Below are positions 6,030-15,456 of a stretch of 64,000 nucleotides of DNA, one piece after another. The position numbers and the translations under genes are program-made. The stretch is taken from assembly GCF_016888135.1 (NCBI RefSeq), contig NZ_JACSWB010000135.1:1-64000 (forward strand), in the 5' to 3' direction. The DNA is from Leptolyngbya sp. CCY15150 (GTDB lineage Bacteria > Cyanobacteriota > Cyanobacteriia > RECH01). Each line of letters begins with the position of its first letter. Position 1 is the stretch's first letter. Below the pieces are notes generated by a model that was not told where the DNA came from, did no database searches, and saw only the letters and a list, made by a program, of their open reading frames with translations.

Positions 6030-6044
6030 TGATAATCATTGTCA
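6030..6044 (+). promoter_or_regulatory. Zur-box-like operator
   Basis: TGATAATCATTGTCA is a near-perfect 7-1-7 palindrome, one base from the cyanobacterial Zur consensus TGATAAT-N-ATTATCA. It lies 46 bases before the COG0523 gene start. Repression by zinc-loaded Zur is expected; no zur gene is in the window. Confidence 0.8.
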
Positions 6045-6089: not shown

Positions 6090-7061
6090 ATGGTCACGAC
6101 TGCGATGACAACTCCAACTCCCGTTACCGTGCTCACGGGTTATTTAGGGGCAGGCAAAACCACCCTGCTCAACCGCATCCTCACCTATGAACATGGCAAA
6201 AAGGTAGCGGTGATTGTCAATGAATTTGGTGAGGTGGGTATCGATCACCAGCTTGTGGTGGATGCGGATGAAGAAATTTTCGAGATGAACAACGGCTGCA
6301 TTTGCTGCACCGTGCGGGGTGATTTGATTCGTATCATTGGCAACTTGATGAAACGGCGCGATCGCTTTGATCACCTCGTGATTGAAACCACAGGTCTTGC
6401 TGATCCGGCCCCAGTCATCCAAACCTTTTTTGTGGATGAAGACGTGCAGGCCCAGTCGCAGTTAGATGCCGTCGTGACGGTGGTGGATGCCCAGCATATC
6501 TGGCAACATTGGGACGCGGAGGAAGCGGTAGAACAAATTGCCTTTGCTGATGTCATCTTACTCAACAAGGTTGACCTAGTTACCCCTGAACAATTGGATG
6601 ACCTAGAGCGCCGGATTCGGGAGATGAATGCGATCGCTAAGATCCACCGCACCCGTGATGCCCAGATCGACATGGACGATATTTTAGGTATCTCTGCCTT
6701 CGACCTTAACAATGCACTACAGATCGATCCTGAATTTCTCAGCGAAACGGCCCATGAGCACGATGAAACCGTAGCTTCCATCGCCATTGTGGAACCAGGT
6801 GCCCTGCATGGCGATCGCCTCAATGCTTGGATGGGAGAGCTGTTGCGTAATCATGGCCCCGATATTTTCCGCATGAAGGGCATTCTCAATATTGACGGAG
6901 AAGACTGTCGCTTTGTTTTTCAGGGCATTCATATGTTATTTGACGGCCGTCAAGATCGTCCTTGGCGACCCGATGAGACCCGCAAGAATGAGCTGGTGTT
7001 TATTGGCCGTAATTTAGAATCTCTGAATTTACTAGAGCGTTTTCGAGAATGCTTAGTCTAA
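6090..7061 (+). CDS. COG0523 (CobW-type) GTPase, likely zinc metallochaperone
   Basis: 323 residues from ATG 6090. An in-frame TTG at 6039 lies inside the Zur box and is rejected as a start. The G-domain shows the P-loop [16 protein letters not shown], the family metal motif [12 protein letters not shown] (GCxCC), the Walker B region [13 protein letters not shown] and the guanine-specificity LLNKVDL. A CobW_C domain follows at about 230-320 ([19 protein letters not shown], then ELVFIGRNL). Proteins of this family use GTP to deliver Zn or other metals. The upstream Zur box and the znu genes point to zinc. Separated from the following WD40 gene by a MITE. Confidence 0.9.
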
Positions 7062-7085
7062 CGTAACCGTTCTTATCTTAGAAAA

Positions 7086-7219
7086 GGCGTTGCTGAATCG
7101 CAAGATGATGTGTGCTAAGGAACCGTGAGCGAGATGCTCATACTCGCAGTTCGTTTACGATCCAGGTAGGGTGAGTATCTTGCTCCCATTCCGGTTGCAT
7201 ATCTCTATTCAGCAACGCC
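7086..7219. mobile_element. MITE class A, copy 1
   Basis: 134 bases bounded by perfect 13-base inverted repeats GGCGTTGCTGAAT and ATTCAGCAACGCC. There is no coding capacity. The internal part (GGAACCGTGAGCGAGATGCTC, then CTTGCTCCCATTCCGGTTGC) recurs in diverged form near 28.6 kb and in reverse near 42.4 kb. It lies between the COG0523 and WD40 genes. Confidence 0.8.
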
Positions 7220-7255
7220 AAAGCTGCATATCGTGATCACTGAGTTTTCTGTCCC

Positions 7256-8323
7256 ATGCCCACCACCCACCCCTTGCTTAAATTCCACTGGCAAACTACC
7301 TTACCCGAATATGTGACGGCGATCGCTTGGTCGCCCGATGGTCAAACCCTAGGCGTCGGTACTGCCGCCGGTGATGTAGTCCTGTATGCGATCGCTTCTG
7401 GAAGTGCCACCGTCCTGCAAGCCCAGAGCGATCGCTCCATTGATACCCTAGCCTTTTCTGCCGACGGCCAGTTTTTAGCCACCGGCGGGCAAGATGGATC
7501 TGCCCAGATCTGGTCATGCCTAACGGAATCACCCCAGTTAATTCAGGCGTTACGGGAAGATCGGGTTTGGGTCGATCGCTTAGCCTGGCATCCTACAGAT
7601 CCAGAGCTAGCCATCAGCTTTGGGCGATCGGTGCAGGTTTGGAATGTAGCGACCCAAACTCAGGTTGCCACCCTAGATTTTGAAGCATCCTCAGTCCTGG
7701 ATCTAGCCTGGCATCCCCAGGGAGAACATCTCTCAGTGGCAGGACATCGCGCGATTAAGACATGGAAACGCCAAGCCTGGGATGCCTCTCCAGAAGAACG
7801 GGAAACCAGCGCCGCTATCGAAGCGATCGCTTGGTCGTCCGACGGTCGTTACCTAGCGGCGGGCAACCACGATCGCACCCTATTAGTATGGGAAATGGGA
7901 AACCCAGCTCCGTGGCAGATGCAAGGTTTTCCGGGTAAGGTACGTCAACTGGCCTGGCCCAGTGATGCTAAATCGAATAAGCTACCTCTCCTAGCCAGCA
8001 TCAGTGCAGAAGAGGTGATTATTTGGCAAAAAGAAGCTGACCCCAATGCCGGCTGGGCGGCCCAACCGCTATCCGTCCACATGAGTCGAGTGGTGGCGAT
8101 CGCCTTCCAGCCAGGCTCACGACTGCTAGCCTCAGCCGCCGATGATGGAACCGTCTGTCTGTGTAAGTCTGCCCACACGCTAATCCAGCGCCTCCAGGGA
8201 GCCCCCGGCGGCTTTGCCTGTCTGGCTTGGCATCCCCAAGGGCAGTACCTAGCGGCAGGTGGTCAGCAGGGCGAACTGATCACTTGGGCGATCGCCCCTC
8301 GTGGTCGTGGTTTTGGCACATAA
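7256..8323 (+). CDS. WD40 repeat protein of the zinc island
   Basis: 355 residues made almost entirely of WD40 blades with the pattern AIAWSPDGQTLGVGTAAGDV, LAFSADGQFLATGGQDGSAQIW, LAWHPQGEHLSVAGH and AFQPGSRLLASAADDGTVCL, enough for one seven-bladed propeller. There is no signal peptide or transmembrane segment, so it is probably a cytoplasmic scaffold. It lies between a Zur-boxed COG0523 gene and znuA. This context suggests a role in zinc limitation, perhaps with the metallochaperones; the sequence alone does not show the function. Confidence 0.85.
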   Translation: MPTTHPLLKFHWQTTLPEYVTAIAWSPDGQTLGVGTAAGDVVLYAIASGSATVLQAQSDRSIDTLAFSADGQFLATGGQDGSAQIWSCLTESPQLIQALREDRVWVDRLAWHPTDPELAISFGRSVQVWNVATQTQVATLDFEASSVLDLAWHPQGEHLSVAGHRAIKTWKRQAWDASPEERETSAAIEAIAWSSDGRYLAAGNHDRTLLVWEMGNPAPWQMQGFPGKVRQLAWPSDAKSNKLPLLASISAEEVIIWQKEADPNAGWAAQPLSVHMSRVVAIAFQPGSRLLASAADDGTVCLCKSAHTLIQRLQGAPGGFACLAWHPQGQYLAAGGQQGELITWAIAPRGRGFGT

Positions 8324-8433: not shown

Positions 8434-8448
8434 TGATAACCATTCTCA
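8434..8448 (+). promoter_or_regulatory. second Zur-box-like operator, upstream of znuA
   Basis: TGATAACCATTCTCA matches TGATAAT-N-ATTATCA at all but two positions and keeps the dyad. It lies about 185 bases before znuA. The long leader between the two has no supported gene. Confidence 0.7.
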
Positions 8449-8631: not shown

Positions 8632-9819
8632 ATGCTTCAAAATCAGGGATTATTGCGCCGGGTCTCGTTTGCGATCGCCTCCACGGTGGTGATTGGATTG
8701 GGAAGTTGTGCGTCTGAGCCAACGGGCGTGACGGATGAGGAGCTAACCCAGGGTGAGGCCATCGAACAGGCCGATGATCTTGATCTGCAGGTGATCACCA
8801 CATTTGTCCCCATCACCCAGTTCACCAAGGCTGTGGCGGGCGATCGCGCTGAGGTGATTCAACTGCTGCCGGCCAATGTTGGCCCCCATGATTACCAAGC
8901 TAAGCCATCGGATGTGCAGGCGATCGCCGATGCCGACGTGTTGGTGAAGAACGGCCTGGAGATGGAGTTTTTCCTCGATGACCTCATCGCTAATGCTGGT
9001 AATGCCGATCTTGTGTTGATTGACACCAGTGAGGGTGTTGCTGTTCTCTCCAACGAGGATGTGGAAGGTCACGGTGATGAGCACAGCGATGACCACGGTG
9101 ATGAGCACGGCCACGATCACGGTGATGAGCACGGGGATGAGCATGCAGCAGAAAGTGGCGATAGCCATGCTGGTCACGTCCACCATGGGGAGTATAACCC
9201 TCACATCTGGCTCGATCCCAAGCGGGTGATTCAACAGGTGGAAACCATTCGCGATGGTCTGATTGCGGTTGATCCAGAGGGCGAAACCGACTACAGGGCC
9301 AACGCTGCCGCCTACATTGAGCAGCTTCAGGCTCTGGATGCAGAATTTACGGAACGCCTTGCGCCTTACGCGGGGCAAACCTTTGTGGCGTTTCATGACT
9401 TTGCCCCCTACTTTGCCGAGAGCTATGGCCTCGAAGCCGAGTTTTTGGTGGACGTGCCGGACGTCAATCCTTCCCCCGAAGACGTGCGGCGGGTGATTGA
9501 AACGGTGGAGGCTTCTAGTCTAAAAACCCTATTGACCGAACCCCAAGCTGGAGACGAAGCGTTTGCCTCCTTGTCCAGCGATTTGAACGTGAAGGTCAGC
9601 GCCTTTGACCCGATGGAAACCGGGGATGCAACAGCTACGGAGCCAGAAGCCTATTTCACGATTATGCGTCAGAATGTTGATGTCCTAGAAGCGGCCTTTA
9701 GCACCTCGGTTCAGTCGTGGCTCTCCCCTGGGATGCCCCAACCCTTGGCGATGATCCTACCGCCTACCTGGGCAACTCGGCCATTCGCCACTGTTGTGCA
9801 ACCCGTTGGAGTGAGATAA
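8632..9819 (+). CDS. znuA: zinc ABC transporter substrate-binding protein
   Basis: 395 residues. A lipoprotein-type signal (hydrophobic 10-26 ending GLGSCAS, Cys ~26) anchors it at the periplasmic face. Family features: TTFVPITQFTKAVAGDRAEV; first metal His in VGPHDYQAKPSD; an acidic His-rich loop at about 138-185 typical of zinc binders; NPHIWLDPKRV; and FVAFHDFAPYFAESYGLEAE. A good ribosome site (AGGAG) precedes the ATG. The last ~30 residues after EAAFS do not look like a normal family end and may be a recent run-on. First gene of znuA-znuC-znuB, downstream of a Zur-like box. Confidence 0.95.
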   Translation: MLQNQGLLRRVSFAIASTVVIGLGSCASEPTGVTDEELTQGEAIEQADDLDLQVITTFVPITQFTKAVAGDRAEVIQLLPANVGPHDYQAKPSDVQAIADADVLVKNGLEMEFFLDDLIANAGNADLVLIDTSEGVAVLSNEDVEGHGDEHSDDHGDEHGHDHGDEHGDEHAAESGDSHAGHVHHGEYNPHIWLDPKRVIQQVETIRDGLIAVDPEGETDYRANAAAYIEQLQALDAEFTERLAPYAGQTFVAFHDFAPYFAESYGLEAEFLVDVPDVNPSPEDVRRVIETVEASSLKTLLTEPQAGDEAFASLSSDLNVKVSAFDPMETGDATATEPEAYFTIMRQNVDVLEAAFSTSVQSWLSPGMPQPLAMILPPTWATRPFATVVQPVGVR

Positions 9820-9849: not shown

Positions 9850-10689
9850 GTGATGCCCCATGGGCGATCGCCGTATGTCTCGGCAAGACTAGAGCAGTCG
9901 TTTGACTCAGTGAGGTACAGATTGAGTGAGAGCATCTTGACCGTTGAACAGTTAACGGTCTATCGAGAACAGCACATGGCCGTGCAGGATGTGTCGTTTA
10001 CCATCCAAGCCGGAACGGATACGGCTTTGGTGGGCCCCAATGGAGCTGGGAAAAGCACCTTGGTTCAAGCCATTTTGGGAATTTTGCCTAGACAGAAGGG
10101 AACGATCCAGATTCTGGGTCAGCCCTTAAGCCGTAAGGGTTACCTGCCTCCTAGCCTCCGTGAGCAGATTGCCTACTTGCCGCAGAACTTTTTGTTTGAT
10201 CGCCGGGTGCCGATTACCGTCGAGGAGCTGATTGGTATCGGCTGGGATCGGCTAGGGTTTCAGCTTCCTTGGGCCGGAGGGCGATCGCGCCACCATGCCA
10301 TTCGTCAGGCTCTATCCCAGGTCGATGCTCTCCATCTGCGCCGACACCTGATCGGCAGCCTGTCGGGGGGAGAAACCAAGCGCGTCCTGCTAGCCTATTG
10401 TCTCGTGCGGCCTCGCCAATTGCTGATTCTTGATGAAGCCTCGGCGGGGATGGATGTGCGCAGTGAGGGAGAGTTTTATCGCTTGCTCTACCAACTGAAG
10501 GACGAGCAGGGCTGGACGATCATTCAAGTGTCTCATGATCTAGATATGGTGCGTCGGCATTGCGATCGCGTCCTCTGTATCAACCGCACGCTGCTTTGTG
10601 AAGGCAGTCCCGATCATGCCCTCTCGCCCGACAACCTAGCCGCCGCCTACGGTTCCGAGTTCATTCGCTACCACCATCACCATTCATGA
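9850..10689 (+). CDS. znuC: zinc ABC transporter ATP-binding protein
   Basis: ABC ATPase with Walker A VGPNGAGKSTLVQAIL, Q-loop YLPQNF, signature LSGGETKRVLLA, Walker B LLILDEASAGMD and switch His in IIQVSHDLDMV. It ends in a short His cluster. The start is uncertain. ATG 9850 gives 279 residues, but the first ~25 are not family-like. GTG 9910 or TTG 9922 (protein LSESILTVEQLTV) would match relatives better. It follows znuA by 30 bases and powers ZnuB. Confidence 0.93.
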   Translation: MMPHGRSPYVSARLEQSFDSVRYRLSESILTVEQLTVYREQHMAVQDVSFTIQAGTDTALVGPNGAGKSTLVQAILGILPRQKGTIQILGQPLSRKGYLPPSLREQIAYLPQNFLFDRRVPITVEELIGIGWDRLGFQLPWAGGRSRHHAIRQALSQVDALHLRRHLIGSLSGGETKRVLLAYCLVRPRQLLILDEASAGMDVRSEGEFYRLLYQLKDEQGWTIIQVSHDLDMVRRHCDRVLCINRTLLCEGSPDHALSPDNLAAAYGSEFIRYHHHHS

Positions 10690-10844: not shown

Positions 10845-11684
10845 ATGTCTATCCCACCTGATTTAATCCGCGTCGTTGAGCTTTTCCAGTTTCCGTTTAT
10901 GCAGCGGGCCCTGATCGGTGGCGTGTTGACAGGACTCATGGGTGGACTCTTGGGCAGCTTTACCATTTTGCGGCAGCTCTCCTTTTTTAGTGATGCCCTC
11001 GGCCATTCGGCACTGTTGGGCATTAGTTTTGGCCTACTGCTAGGGCTCAATCCCTCCGCCGTGTTGCTCCCCTTTGCGGTTCTATTTGCCCTCGGCGTCA
11101 CCTATTTGCTAGAGCGTACCCGCCTTTGGACAGATGCGTTGCTGAATATTATCTACTCAGCATCCTTAGCGATCGCCATCATCACCCTCAGCTTTATTGG
11201 CCAGTATAAAGGTGGGATTAATAACTTATTGTTCGGTGATATTTTAGCCGTCCGATCCGCTGACATTGGTCTGGGGATTGGGCTCTTAGTGATGTGCGCG
11301 CTGTTTATTGGCTTAACTCTACGCACCCAGATGTTGATCACTCTGCACGAACCCATGGCGATCGCTCGCGGCGTCTCGGTATCGTTTCACCGCAGTGCTT
11401 TTATTGTGCTGCTGTCCTTGGTCGTCGGCATTTCCATTAAAGCCATTGGCGTTTTGTTGGTCAGCGCCTTTATTGTCATTCCAGCCTGCACATCCCGACT
11501 TATCTGTCGAAATTTTGTCACCTACGTGGTCTTCTCAGCCTTATTAGGAGCCCTCAGTGCCATCGTCGGTATTTTCCTCTCGGCATTATTTGACCTACCC
11601 TCTGGCCCGATCATTGTTGTAACCCAGCTTGCGATTTTCATAGGAGCGATCGCCCTTCCCCGGATAACCAAATTAGCCTACTAA
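10845..11684 (+). CDS. znuB: zinc ABC transporter permease
   Basis: 279 residues, very hydrophobic with about eight membrane spans, matching the ABC-3 (ZnuB/MntB) family: MQRALIGGVLTGLMGGLLGS near the start, FFSDALGHSALLGISFG, and the C-terminal AIGVLLVSAFIVIPACTSRL. The 155-base gap after znuC contains a run of short TCTCCTG-type direct repeats just before the start codon. Forms the channel of the Znu importer. Confidence 0.94.
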   Translation: MSIPPDLIRVVELFQFPFMQRALIGGVLTGLMGGLLGSFTILRQLSFFSDALGHSALLGISFGLLLGLNPSAVLLPFAVLFALGVTYLLERTRLWTDALLNIIYSASLAIAIITLSFIGQYKGGINNLLFGDILAVRSADIGLGIGLLVMCALFIGLTLRTQMLITLHEPMAIARGVSVSFHRSAFIVLLSLVVGISIKAIGVLLVSAFIVIPACTSRLICRNFVTYVVFSALLGALSAIVGIFLSALFDLPSGPIIVVTQLAIFIGAIALPRITKLAY

Positions 11685-11708: not shown

Positions 11709-12863
11709 ATGACCCCATCCACACCATCTCCTACCATTCCGAAGCGCGGTCTTCCGGTCACCGTGATCACCGGCTTTTTAGGCAGCGGTAAAACCACGTT
11801 GCTGAATACGATCTTAAACAACTGCCACGATCTCAAAGTTGCTGTACTGGTCAATGAATTTGGGGATATTGACATTGATAGCCAACTGCTCGTCTCCGTC
11901 GATCAGGATATGGTGCAGTTGAGCAATGGCTGCATCTGCTGCACCATCAACGATGGTCTGGTTGAGGCTGTCTATAATGTGCTAGAGCGAACCGATCGGA
12001 TTGATTATCTGGTGATTGAAACCACTGGCATTGCTGAGCCACTGCCGATTATGTTGACCTTTTTAGGGACAGAGCTGCGAGATATGACTCGCCTAGACTC
12101 CGTGATTACCCTAGTGGACGCCTCAGAGTTCACCCCTAGCCACTTTGAGAGTGAGGCGGCCCTCAAGCAGATTATCTATGGCGATATTATTTTACTCAAT
12201 AAAACAGATTTAGTCTCGGCTGACCAAGTAGAGGCTCTAGAACAGCACATCCACGACATCAAAGATGGCGCTCGCATTATTCAATGCCGCCACGGAGAGG
12301 TTCCCCTACCGCTGCTGTTAGACGTAGGCTTTCACGATCCAACCACCTACAATGAGCTGATTTCCTTGGATGAACCGGCTCCGGCTCACCTCCATGATCA
12401 CGATCATCATCACAGCTCCCATCATCATCACGATGACCATCATGATCATCACCGTGATCCTCACGCTCATCACGACCATAATCACGATCATGACCATCAC
12501 GGCCATGATTATCATGACCATGACGATCCTCGCCACTCCCATCACCTCGAAAACGATGGCTTTGTGTCGGTGTCCTTCAAGAGCGATCGCCCCTTCTCCC
12601 TGCGCAAATTTGAGGACTTCTTGAACCGTTTGCCCATCGACATTTTTCGGGCCAAGGGTCTGCTGTGGTTTGCCGAAAGCCAGCATAAACATATTTTTCA
12701 GCTCAGCGGTAAGCGCTGTACCCTAGACGTAGAGCCTTGGAATTCCTCGCCCTACGCGAACCAACTGGTGTTTATTGGACGGCAGCTGGATGCAGAGCAG
12801 TTGCGCCAAGAGCTGATGGATTGTCAAGCCTCTGATATGATCACGCCTATCCTGCTCCGTTAA
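11709..12863 (+). CDS. COG0523 GTPase with long His-rich loop
   Basis: 384 residues: P-loop TGFLGSGKTTLLNTIL, metal motif SNGCICCTINDGL, LVIETTGIAEPLP and LLNKTDL. The loop at about 220-280 is mostly His and Asp, then CobW_C (RAKGLLWFAESQHKHIFQLS, ending NQLVFIGRQLD). His-rich COG0523 proteins are thought to hold or deliver zinc under limitation. It starts 24 bases after znuB, so it probably shares its transcript. It is a paralogue of the gene at 6090; the His loop is the main difference. Confidence 0.92.
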   Translation: MTPSTPSPTIPKRGLPVTVITGFLGSGKTTLLNTILNNCHDLKVAVLVNEFGDIDIDSQLLVSVDQDMVQLSNGCICCTINDGLVEAVYNVLERTDRIDYLVIETTGIAEPLPIMLTFLGTELRDMTRLDSVITLVDASEFTPSHFESEAALKQIIYGDIILLNKTDLVSADQVEALEQHIHDIKDGARIIQCRHGEVPLPLLLDVGFHDPTTYNELISLDEPAPAHLHDHDHHHSSHHHHDDHHDHHRDPHAHHDHNHDHDHHGHDYHDHDDPRHSHHLENDGFVSVSFKSDRPFSLRKFEDFLNRLPIDIFRAKGLLWFAESQHKHIFQLSGKRCTLDVEPWNSSPYANQLVFIGRQLDAEQLRQELMDCQASDMITPILLR

Positions 12864-12880
12864 TCATCTCCATAATTCCC

Positions 12881-13645
12881 ATGTCTTCCTCCCCTATGAT
12901 TGCAGTTGCTGGCCCGTCGGGCAGCGGAAAAACAGCTTGGATGAGTCAGTTTTTTGCCGATCAATCCCGGCCCCTATTTTATTTTTGTCCAGGTCTAGGA
13001 ACCATTTCGGTAGACCTGGCCCGGGTTGCCTATCAGTTTCCCTGGGTGCAGGTGATTCCCGATGACCAAGTTGTCCAAGCATTTAGCAACCTACCCGAAG
13101 ATGCCCAAGTCTTTGTGGAGCTTGGCTTTCACCTTGATCTAACCTCATCCTTTCTGGCATCTCTACCTTGCCATCGCGTCGCCATCCTGCCCATAGCTTT
13201 CACCGATTCGGAGTGGCACGGCTGGGCAGATGAGGTGATTCCTGGCAATGAGATAGCGATCGCTGATCATCCCGATCTACCAGCAATTTGGCGATCGCCC
13301 CTCACGGGTCAGGTGTTTGATCCACCCAGTTTAGATACGGTATGGAACGAGATCATCGGTGGAGCCTATGGCCAGGTGCAGCGGGCCAAGGGAATTTTTG
13401 AAATGCCGGATGGACGCGCCTTTCATATCGATTTTGTGAACGGTTTGCCGGGCAGTGAATATACAGAACTGATGATTCCTCGCTGGTTGGATGGACGTCC
13501 CGATCGCTTCAGTGGCATTGAGGTGATTGGATGGACTGTAGATCAAGAGGCGATCGCCCAGGCGATTGTTGATGCTTGTTTACCGGATGAAGCGATCGCC
13601 CAATATCAGCAACAGGTGCGCCAACTCGTCGAGGCAACAGCCTAA
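12881..13645 (+). CDS. degenerate CobW-like P-loop protein
   Basis: 254 residues. A P-loop is intact near the start (IAVAGPSGSGKTAW), but the GCxCC metal motif and the NKxD guanine motif of COG0523 are absent. The C-terminal third resembles CobW_C (YGQVQRAKGIFEMPDGRAFH, then FVNGLPG). It follows the His-rich GTPase gene by 17 bases, and the next gene follows it by 29 bases, so it sits inside the operon. It may be a regulatory or scaffold relative of the metallochaperones. Nucleotide type and function are unknown. Confidence 0.75.
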   Translation: MSSSPMIAVAGPSGSGKTAWMSQFFADQSRPLFYFCPGLGTISVDLARVAYQFPWVQVIPDDQVVQAFSNLPEDAQVFVELGFHLDLTSSFLASLPCHRVAILPIAFTDSEWHGWADEVIPGNEIAIADHPDLPAIWRSPLTGQVFDPPSLDTVWNEIIGGAYGQVQRAKGIFEMPDGRAFHIDFVNGLPGSEYTELMIPRWLDGRPDRFSGIEVIGWTVDQEAIAQAIVDACLPDEAIAQYQQQVRQLVEATA

Positions 13646-13674: not shown

Positions 13675-14487
13675 ATGAAACTTGCCGTTATATCCTGTAT
13701 TCACGGGAATTATGAAGCACTCAATGCTGTCCTATCCGATATTGATGATCAGCAAGCCGACCAAATCTACTGTCTTGGCGATCTGGTGGGCTATGGGCCC
13801 CATCCCAATGCCGTTGTAGAAATGATTCGCTCCCTAGATATCCCCACCTGTCAAGGCTGTTGGGATGAAGATATTGTGGAAGGGCTGAATGCCTGCGAAT
13901 GTAGCTATCCTTCCCAACTGGCCGAAAAACGCGGACGCCTAGCCCATGAATGGACGAATCAAACTATTCATCCTGAAGTACGCGACTATCTGGCAAAGCT
14001 GCCCATGAGTTTACAACGAGATAACCTTTGTTTTGTTCATGGCAGTCCCAATAGCCAGCATGAATATCTGCTGCCGAGTATGGATAACTTTGCTGCCCTA
14101 GAGCGGGTGTTTGCCACCGGAGCCGATACCCTATTTTGTGGTCACACTCATGTCCCCTACGTGCGCCGACTGGAGCAAGGTCATCTCTCTGTGCGGGTTC
14201 ATCAACCCAATCATCCAGACACCACTCACCAGTTCACAACGCCGGTGAAACAGATTATTAATGCTGGTTCTGTAGGAGAGCCCCGCCATGGTCGCCCTAA
14301 CGCAACCTATGTTATTTATGACACCGATACAGCCCAAGTTGCCTTACGGGAAGTTCCCTATGACTACCAGCGCACCTGTGCTGCTATTATCGAACAAGGA
14401 CTACCGCCGATCTTTGCTTGGCGTTTAGCTCAGGGGCTAGAATTTGCAGAACGAGCTGATGATCCAGGACATGTCTGTCAACGATAA
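13675..14487 (+). CDS. metallophosphoesterase homologue with two Cys-substituted metal ligands
   Basis: 270 residues with the calcineurin-like phosphoesterase framework (YfcE/ApaH-like, COG0639). The canonical D-x-H-G-N is C-I-H-G-N at residues 8-12 (MKLAVISCIHGNYEAL). GDLVGYGP is normal. The canonical G-N-H/W-D is G-C-W-D (PTCQGCWDEDI). The later ligands CFVHGSP and FCGHTHVP are present. So one Asp and one Asn of the di-metal centre are both Cys. This could mean a different metal or altered chemistry. The RBS is good (GAGGAG, 6 bases before the ATG). Last clear member of the zinc operon before a MITE. Confidence 0.82.
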   Translation: MKLAVISCIHGNYEALNAVLSDIDDQQADQIYCLGDLVGYGPHPNAVVEMIRSLDIPTCQGCWDEDIVEGLNACECSYPSQLAEKRGRLAHEWTNQTIHPEVRDYLAKLPMSLQRDNLCFVHGSPNSQHEYLLPSMDNFAALERVFATGADTLFCGHTHVPYVRRLEQGHLSVRVHQPNHPDTTHQFTTPVKQIINAGSVGEPRHGRPNATYVIYDTDTAQVALREVPYDYQRTCAAIIEQGLPPIFAWRLAQGLEFAERADDPGHVCQR

Positions 14488-14519: not shown

Positions 14520-14665
14520 GGCGTTGCTGAATACAAGTATGAATTCCTAAATCCGCCCTCACCCTAGCCCTCTCCCCAGGGAGAGGGAATAAGAATTCTA
14601 GCTCCCTTCTCCCTAGGGAGAAGGGTTGGGGATGAGGGCAGATCATCTATCGATTCAGCAATGCC
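14520..14665. mobile_element. MITE class B, copy 1
   Basis: 146 bases with ends GGCGTTGCTGAAT and ATTCAGCAATGCC. The interior holds two hairpins built on CCCTCTCCC...GGGAGAGGG and CCCTTCTCCC...GGGAGAAGGG, flanked by CCCTCACCC/GGATGAGGG. A nearly identical copy is at 40.1 kb. It separates the two metallophosphoesterase genes and could form strong RNA hairpins between them. Confidence 0.8.
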
Positions 14666-14703: not shown

Positions 14704-15456
14704 ATGACAGGACAATGGGCAATTTTAAGCGGCATTGAAGGTAATTTAGCGGCCTATGAGGCTGTGCTAGCCGATCTACGGTGGTCAACGGTGGATTCTC
14801 TTTATATTCTCGGGGATGTAGTCGGTTTGCAGGGCGAGAATGAAGCTGTGGTGCAGCGGCTGCGATCGCCCCGTGACCATGAACTATCCCCCCAAGTTTG
14901 CACTGGCTGGTGGGAAGAACAGTGCTTTAATCTCCACGGTATGGGTCTACAGATGGACGTGCCGGAACTCCTGACAGCCTACGGTGCAGACGCGGTGAAC
15001 ACCTTATGGGAGTCCCTCAGTCGCGATGCAGTGCAATGGCTGCGATCGCTAGATTTTGGTTTCCATGAACTGGATTGTTTGTTGATTCACGGCAGCACTG
15101 TGAGCTACAGTGATGAACTTACCCCAGAAACCCCTGCTATTCAACTATGCGATCGCTTAATCCGTGCAGATGCAGACCATCTGTTTTGTGGGCGATCGGG
15201 TCAAGCTTTTGAATGCTGGATCGAAGACGGCACCCTCCAATCTAGCGTAACGACCTTAGATGAACCCGCCACCGTTCACCAACAAACCATGCAGCCTCGC
15301 CGGGTGGTCGGTGTCGGCAGTGTGGGGCGTCGTCCTAATCAAGCCACCTATGTCCTCTACAGTCCCACATCCAACCAAGTGGAATTTAGAACCGTCTCCT
15401 ACGGAGCTGGACAAGGTTTTCAAACCTCGCGCTCCCGTTCAGGGCATCTTAGGTAA
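14704..15456 (+). CDS. catalytically degenerate metallophosphoesterase paralogue
   Basis: 250 residues from ATG 14704 (MTGQWAILSGIEGNLAAYEA); an in-frame upstream ATG lies inside the MITE and is rejected. The fold is recognisable beside the preceding gene, but the ligands are gone: D-x-H is G-I-E, G-N-H-D is T-G-W-W-E, and the final G-H-x-H is G-R-S-G. Only LGDVVG and LIHGS remain. Probably not an enzyme; it may bind or regulate the neighbouring protein. Its 3' end overlaps the convergent oxidoreductase gene by 8 bases. Confidence 0.75.
   Translation: MTGQWAILSGIEGNLAAYEAVLADLRWSTVDSLYILGDVVGLQGENEAVVQRLRSPRDHELSPQVCTGWWEEQCFNLHGMGLQMDVPELLTAYGADAVNTLWESLSRDAVQWLRSLDFGFHELDCLLIHGSTVSYSDELTPETPAIQLCDRLIRADADHLFCGRSGQAFECWIEDGTLQSSVTTLDEPATVHQQTMQPRRVVGVGSVGRRPNQATYVLYSPTSNQVEFRTVSYGAGQGFQTSRSRSGHLR

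Follow-up and report, generated by a model that had tools for sequence, protein, structure and literature searches.

A metallophosphoesterase with cysteine at two metal-ligand positions lies in a conserved three-gene module of cyanobacteria

Gene organization of the locus

The window analysed here is the whole 64-kb stretch (64,000 nucleotides) of the Leptolyngbya sp. CCY15150 contig. It contains a gene for a metallophosphoesterase with cysteine at two metal-ligand positions, which we call Cys-MPE (Cys-metallophosphoesterase). The gene is part of a run on one strand in the order znuA, znuC, znuB, COG0523, cobWC, Cys-MPE and MPE2, with gaps of 30, 155, 24, 17, 29 and 216 bp. The features of the locus are the following, where TGATAATNATTATCA is the Zur consensus that we take to be the cyanobacterial Zur box.

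6030..6044, no strand given: Zur-box-like site before the upstream COG0523 gene (6090), one mismatch to TGATAATNATTATCA
6090..7061, plus strand: second COG0523/CobW GTPase, likely start ATG 6090 (the ORF is listed from TTG 6039)
8434..8448, no strand given: Zur-box-like site before znuA, two mismatches to TGATAATNATTATCA
8632..9819, plus strand: znuA-like zinc-binding protein, His/Asp-rich, assigned from sequence features and gene order, not by family search
9850..10689, plus strand: znuC-like ABC ATPase, assigned from the look of the sequence and gene order, not by family search
10845..11684, plus strand: znuB-like permease, assigned in the same way as znuC
11709..12863, plus strand: COG0523/CobW GTPase with a His-rich loop (PF02492, 8.2e-57; CobW_C, 1.1e-23)
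12881..13645, plus strand: cobWC, module gene 1, COG0523-like, with P-loop and CobW_C and without CxCC; pLDDT of the model 93.2
13675..14487, plus strand: Cys-MPE, a single ORF of 270 aa, supported by orthologs and an AlphaFold2 model
13696..13698, plus strand: codon of Cys8, at the Asp position of D-x-H (here S-C-I-H), putative metal 1 ligand; Cys in 148/148 orthologs
13858..13860, plus strand: codon of Cys62, at the Asn position of G-N-H-D (here G-C-W-D), putative metal 2 ligand; Cys in 148/148
13894..13902, plus strand: C74-x-C76 motif, 148/148, in a loop with pLDDT below 50 (residues 73-80)
14470..14478, plus strand: C-terminal H266-x-C268 motif, 148/148, in a tail with pLDDT below 50 (residues 261-270)
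14704..15456, plus strand: MPE2, module gene 3, a degenerate, putative paralogue of Cys-MPE, likely start ATG 14704 (the ORF is listed from TTG 14626)

The preliminary description had assigned the gene to a zinc-starvation operon, and this assignment holds: Cys-MPE lies behind znuA, znuC, znuB, COG0523 and cobWC, with a Zur-box-like site before znuA. No further site with two or fewer mismatches to the Zur consensus was found in the 64-kb window beyond the two listed. The reverse strand of the Cys-MPE gene is rich in stop codons and contains no gene. By eye, the 216-bp gap between Cys-MPE and MPE2 contains, at window 14540-14650, an inverted repeat with runs like CCCTCTCCCCAGGGAGAGGG, resembling a small mobile repeat.

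Metal-ligand positions and fold of Cys-MPE

Cys-MPE scored above the cut-offs of two Pfam models, Metallophos_2 (PF12850) with 82.1 bits against a threshold of 27 and Metallophos (PF00149) with 46 bits against 21.5. These models were matched by 53 of the 80 rows in an alignment of 53 Cys-MPE and 27 MPE2 sequences. For the YfcE subfamily, the scores of Cys-MPE fell below the thresholds of both TIGR00040 (26.3 vs 56.25 bits) and PRK09453 (48.7 vs 117 bits).

The canonical ligands were taken from LpxH, whose seven metal ligands are described as Asp8, His10, Asp41, Asn79, His114, His195 and His197, with Mn1 held by Asp8, His10, Asp41 and His197 and Mn2 by Asp41, Asn79, His114 and His195 (PMC5016852). 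In the alignment these correspond to C8, H10, D36, C62, H122, H157 and H159 of Cys-MPE. The canonical set D, H, D, N, H, H, H is not present in Cys-MPE, as all 148 orthologs have Cys at positions 8 and 62; the remaining five of the seven positions are canonical. The claim of the preliminary description that D-x-H has Cys for its Asp and G-N-H-D has Cys for its Asn while the other ligands are kept was thus confirmed. Because the published division of the LpxH ligands puts positions 8 and 62 in different sites, there is one Cys exchange per metal site, again as had been claimed. A further change absent from that description is the replacement of the His of G-N-H-D by Trp (W63), likewise found in 148/148 sequences.

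An AlphaFold2 model of Cys-MPE, built from the 80-row alignment, had a mean pLDDT of 87.5. In the fold comparison, 2gju, 1nnw, 3rqz and 3qfm matched the model at Z 27-29 and the next match was at Z 16, so that the predicted fold is the metallophosphoesterase (calcineurin-like) fold. Two stretches of the model have a pLDDT below 50, residues 73-80 with the C-x-C motif and 261-270 with the H-x-C motif, and together they contain three of the invariant extra cysteines and one His. Both stretches may become ordered only with a metal or a partner, though low pLDDT alone is no proof of this.

The closest solved relative by sequence is the Sphaerobacter thermophilus metallophosphoesterase 3rqz (E 6e-33), which is also among the best fold matches (Z 28.7 over 218 residues; Foldseek E 6e-21). 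Unlike Cys-MPE, 3rqz has the Asp in S-D-V-H and the Asn in G-N-H-D and has no C-x-C, and the match stops before the H-x-C tail. The streptococcal asymmetric Ap4A hydrolase SapH (3qfm) shares the fold over the whole domain (Z 27.3, 235 residues, rmsd 2.6) at about 23% identity.

Conservation of the two cysteines

Orthologs were collected from 388 genomes of the class, from named genome contigs (80 kept of 330 relatives, all 80 cyanobacterial by title) and from a search of the phylum. Of the 388 class genomes, 303 had a match with an E no higher than 1e-3, and by hand count only about 144 have a close ortholog (best E 1e-40 or better). The ortholog set comprised 195 loci; with a minimum identity of 50% and a length above 200 residues, they yielded 194 hits and 148 distinct aligned sequences, from which shorter or weaker matches were excluded.

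Down to an identity of about 59%, C8, C62, H10, D36, H122, H157 and H159 are each invariant in 148/148 sequences. The same is true for C74, C76, C155, C268, H91 and H266, and N12 and Asp64 (of GN-x-D) are invariant among the orthologs as well. C33 is present in 146/148, and C59 and C119 are variable. Co-conservation of the two cysteines had been set in advance as the test of the preliminary description. Free variation was not seen, as all 148 sequences carry the two Cys together; on this conservation, drift or sequencing error was rejected as the source of the pair.

Outside the orthologs, 37 homologs were hand-picked from the weaker matches, 8 of them from plasmids of other phyla and the rest from Cyanobacteriota genomes. 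At positions 8, 10 and 62 they have D/H/N (31 homologs), G/Y/N (4), G/E/W (1) and E/S/W (1), and none of the 37 has Cys at 8 or 62. A candidate 38th homolog (L217) with Cys8 was dropped, being a 56-residue fragment 71% identical to Cys-MPE, that is, a broken ortholog. In a quick tree, from which four of the 37 homologs were omitted, the Cys-MPE and MPE2 rows, together with two MPE2-like rows, were split from 31 other rows by a fully supported branch, MPE2 itself being on a very long branch. A single origin of the Cys pair is sufficient, because the Cys-MPE and MPE2 rows share one side of this branch.

Matches were also found in 152 plasmid records. Six of these have 60-80% identity and are cyanobacterial, and all eight non-cyanobacterial plasmid homologs that were compared carry Asp and Asn. 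The H-x-C tail was not found in the eight aligned plasmid homologs. Three of the plasmid proteins (Pontibacter, Adhaeribacter and Rubrobacter), which belong to ars clusters and are 33-36% identical to Cys-MPE over most of its length, carry C-G-C where Cys-MPE has C74-x-C76. They differ from Cys-MPE in having the canonical S-D-x-H and G-N-Y-D, no H-x-C tail and arsenic gene neighbours. As the C-x-C also occurs in these proteins with canonical D/N sites, it is probably older than the Cys pair, judging from the alignment. The genes next to these ars-cluster proteins are arsB, arsC and arsenite methyltransferase (L200, L201, L203; plasmid matches).

A third cyanobacterial MPE-like group (L219, L224, L225 and L231) is another degenerate relative: its S-D-x-H has become G-G-P-Y and its G-H-T-H has become T-H-T-G, and it retains G-N-Y-D and C-G-C. 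Carriage of Cys-MPE by cyanophages or other viruses was considered and rejected, as a scan of viral contigs gave two pattern matches and no relative.

Three-gene module cobWC, Cys-MPE and MPE2

Cys-MPE is the middle gene of a module that the preliminary description overlooked and that marine picocyanobacteria retain even away from zinc islands. The gene directly upstream, on the same strand, is cobWC in 138 of the 139 loci for which 1.5 kb or more of upstream sequence was available. MPE2 lies within 3 kb downstream in 101 of the 111 loci with at least 3 kb of downstream sequence, a count that falls to 84/111 if frames overlapping the end of the MPE are excluded. The complete trio is present in 96/107 loci. 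The cobWC and MPE genes overlap by a few bases in 96/145 loci, and likewise in the annotations of Trichormus and Dolichospermum plasmids.

Like the COG0523 metallochaperone GTPases (YjiA, ZigA/YciC class), cobWC has a P-loop, conserved as G14/G16/K17/T18, and a CobW_C-like domain. It differs from them in having no CxCC and a shorter GTPase half. The CobW_C domain was detected in 51/55 cobWC members (E 0.01), and the window cobWC scores 21.3 for it, slightly below the cut-off of 22; the cobW nucleotide-domain model matches only 7/55 members. No conserved CxCC motif was found among 141 cobWC sequences, unlike the alignment of the neighbouring COG0523 protein, in which C-I-C-C is invariant. With the cobWC model as query, the three best Foldseek matches were all YjiA (1nij, 4ixn and 4ixm, E 8e-8 to 3e-7), the next being at E 5e-3. 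VIA-align gave Z 9.0-9.4 with YjiA at an rmsd near 14.7 and ranked SRP-type GTPases as high, so the assignment of cobWC to the G3E class rests on Foldseek, CobW_C and the P-loop. Alignment with COG0523 by hhalign covered the C-terminal domain alone (probability 84).

Among 130 MPE2 sequences, D38 and H129 are the two ligand positions kept out of seven, and the MPE2 of the window passed no Pfam model.

Zinc-starvation islands and Zur sites

Judging by its gene neighbours, the module usually sits in a zinc-starvation island (znuABC, COG0523, folE, hemB, thrS, hisI, zur). In the 148 loci, the neighbours include folE (41 loci), hemB (37), znuA (23), zur (15), thrS (13) and hisI (11), as well as COG0523 genes like cobW2 (48) and like the one at 6090 (cobW_6090-like, 14). 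At least one of these neighbours or the FAD/NAD(P) oxidoreductase gene described below is present in 80 of the 107 loci that have 9 kb or more of sequence. In the 19 loci of marine picocyanobacteria, an assignment that we infer, no recurrent neighbours were found except the trio itself.

In 62/142 loci, the 400 bp before cobWC contain a Zur-like site with two or fewer mismatches, compared with 0.6% of single-base shuffles. When the whole upstream gene run was searched, a site was found in 97/129 non-marine loci and 1/19 marine loci, on a background near 19% for this wider measure (118/620 random 1500-bp stretches). The promoter region searched had no Zur-like site in 32/129 non-marine loci. 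Since only one of the 19 marine loci has such a site and the trio stands alone there, zinc control of the module is not universal.

Two other genes recur in these neighbourhoods. A gene for an FAD/NAD(P)-binding oxidoreductase is present in 49/148 loci, mostly divergent; one example (L196:3757-5022), of a type often divergent from cobWC, is weakly like lysine/ornithine N-monooxygenases (PF13434, 4e-8) and is possibly a metallophore gene of the zinc island. The other recurrent neighbour is a pair of genes, one for a COG0523 protein and one with WD40 repeats (window 6090-8323; L137, L138, L150, L157), and the pair in the window has its own Zur-box-like site.

Broken module of PCC 7002

The locus SYNPCC7002_G0129-G0132 on pAQ7 of PCC 7002 is of the same type and adjoins hemB-II and folE-II. 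It differs from the window in that Cys-MPE is missing, cobWC is truncated and 112 aa of MPE2 remain. PCC 7117 and NIES-970 have all three module genes. Compared with the intact locus of PCC 7117, the truncated cobWC is 99% identical over 147 aa and the MPE2 remnant 96% over 112 aa, and Cys-MPE is absent from the pAQ7 locus. An unrelated ORF of 236 aa lies between the two remnants (L208, 18717-20488). By gene order and length, we matched the truncated cobWC to G0131 and the MPE2 remnant to G0129.

In PCC 7002, loss of zur raises expression of the pAQ7 Zur cluster (hemB-II, folE-II, G0131, G0132) but not of G0129 ('phosphoesterase') and G0130 (PMC4628125). As G0131 matches the truncated cobWC, the cobWC promoter in PCC 7002 appears to be Zur-controlled. 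We considered and rejected the silence of G0129 as proof that Zur does not control the module: as Cys-MPE is absent and only an MPE2 remnant is left, this silence is uninformative for intact modules.

Proposed function and alternative explanations

The interpretation that we favour, tentatively and at somewhat less than even chances, is that Cys-MPE is a dinuclear enzyme tuned to zinc, with N2OS sites loaded by its COG0523-like partner, and that its centre is most likely still hydrolytic. Metal 1 would be held by C8, H10, D36 and H159 and metal 2 by D36, C62, H122 and H157. Each site would have one Cys thiolate, two His and the shared Asp, which make up N2OS, a typical tetrahedral set for Zn(II). 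The exchange would convert an oxygen-rich octahedral centre of the Mn/Fe type into a tight zinc centre, suited to cells with little free zinc; with such a set, we propose, Zn(II) would therefore be kept at very low free zinc. The sensory zinc site of a marine cyanobacterial Zur is also described as N2OS (PMC9337993). For the partners, cobWC, which has no CxCC metal motif, would load or hold the metal for Cys-MPE, and MPE2 would be a structural partner. Outside marine picocyanobacteria, expression would be expected from Zur-controlled promoters under zinc starvation.

With less certainty, the centre would most likely still hydrolyse a phosphoester or phosphoanhydride. Zinc with a Cys ligand is compatible with hydrolysis, for example in metallo-beta-lactamases. 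Catalysis may nevertheless be lost, because a Cys ligand should make the centre less Lewis-acidic and Trp replaces the GNHD His. The kept ligands would favour surviving hydrolysis, and Trp63, the extra cysteines and the pseudoenzyme partner would favour a store or sensor. The calcineurin-like fold is also used outside phosphoester chemistry, by the peptide epimerase MslH (PMC10406935).

Among the alternatives, a non-catalytic zinc store or sensor is possible, though rather unlikely. The old active site, rich in thiolates (C8 and C62, perhaps with C74, C76, H266 and C268 folding over it), would buffer zinc or report to MPE2 and cobWC. Such a role is supported by the invariant extra Cys and His in the low-confidence segments 73-80 and 261-270, by the loss of the GNHD His (W63) and by a pseudoenzyme partner that has lost most of its ligands; however, the kept ligands together with invariant N12 and Asp64 are more than a passive store needs. 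We consider it unlikely that the module is instead a zinc-handling device in which a non-hydrolytic, Cys-ligated two-zinc centre would serve to store, sense or hand on zinc and would be charged by a COG0523-like NTPase without CxCC, with the dead phosphoesterase as scaffold, and which would be Zur-free and constant in low-zinc oceans. Against our favoured interpretation stand the invariant C74, C76, C155 and C268, which two N2OS sites leave unexplained, as well as the loci without a Zur-like site and the restriction of close orthologs to about 144 of the 388 class genomes. With C8 and C62, the four left-over cysteines would be enough for a cluster. The conserved cysteines might accordingly hold an Fe(II)/Fe-S or Co centre, the enzyme working zinc-free during zinc shortage, and Zur islands are described as often carrying paralogs thought to be zinc-independent (PMC2770081). 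By eye, however, no Cys spacing of a known Fe-S family was recognised, and no Fe-S assembly genes were evident among the 30 largest neighbour clusters, which makes this explanation improbable.

The many invariant cysteines and the FAD/NAD(P) oxidoreductase gene would also fit a redox switch, in which a C8/C62 or C74/C76 disulfide turns a metal enzyme off and the zinc context is secondary. Yet a simple switch would hardly be expected to use two metal ligands, one from each site, and two thirds of the loci showed no FAD gene, so we give a switch of this kind little credence. That Cys-MPE is an ordinary canonical phosphodiesterase with two tolerated cysteines is hardly credible: the fold and five ligands are indeed kept, but the identity of all 148 orthologs at both positions, against outsiders of which 31/37 are canonical and 0/37 have Cys, largely refutes it.

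Significance

Neither the fold family nor COG0523 nor the Zur island is new. No description of the invariant double Cys exchange or of the fixed trio was found in the open literature searched, though the main Anabaena Zur gene list may include these genes. The PCC 7002 Zur paper mentions only G0129, as a 'phosphoesterase' (PMC4628125).

A link between COG0523 proteins and zinc shortage is widely made, but clients are known, to our knowledge, for only a few of them. Almost all genomes with Cys-MPE have the COG0523-like cobWC before it, often overlapping it, which makes Cys-MPE a candidate client. If our interpretation is true, the metal preference of a common hydrolase fold would have been rewritten by one substitution per metal site. 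The hosts include marine Synechococcus and its relatives, for which the zinc supply of the ocean matters.
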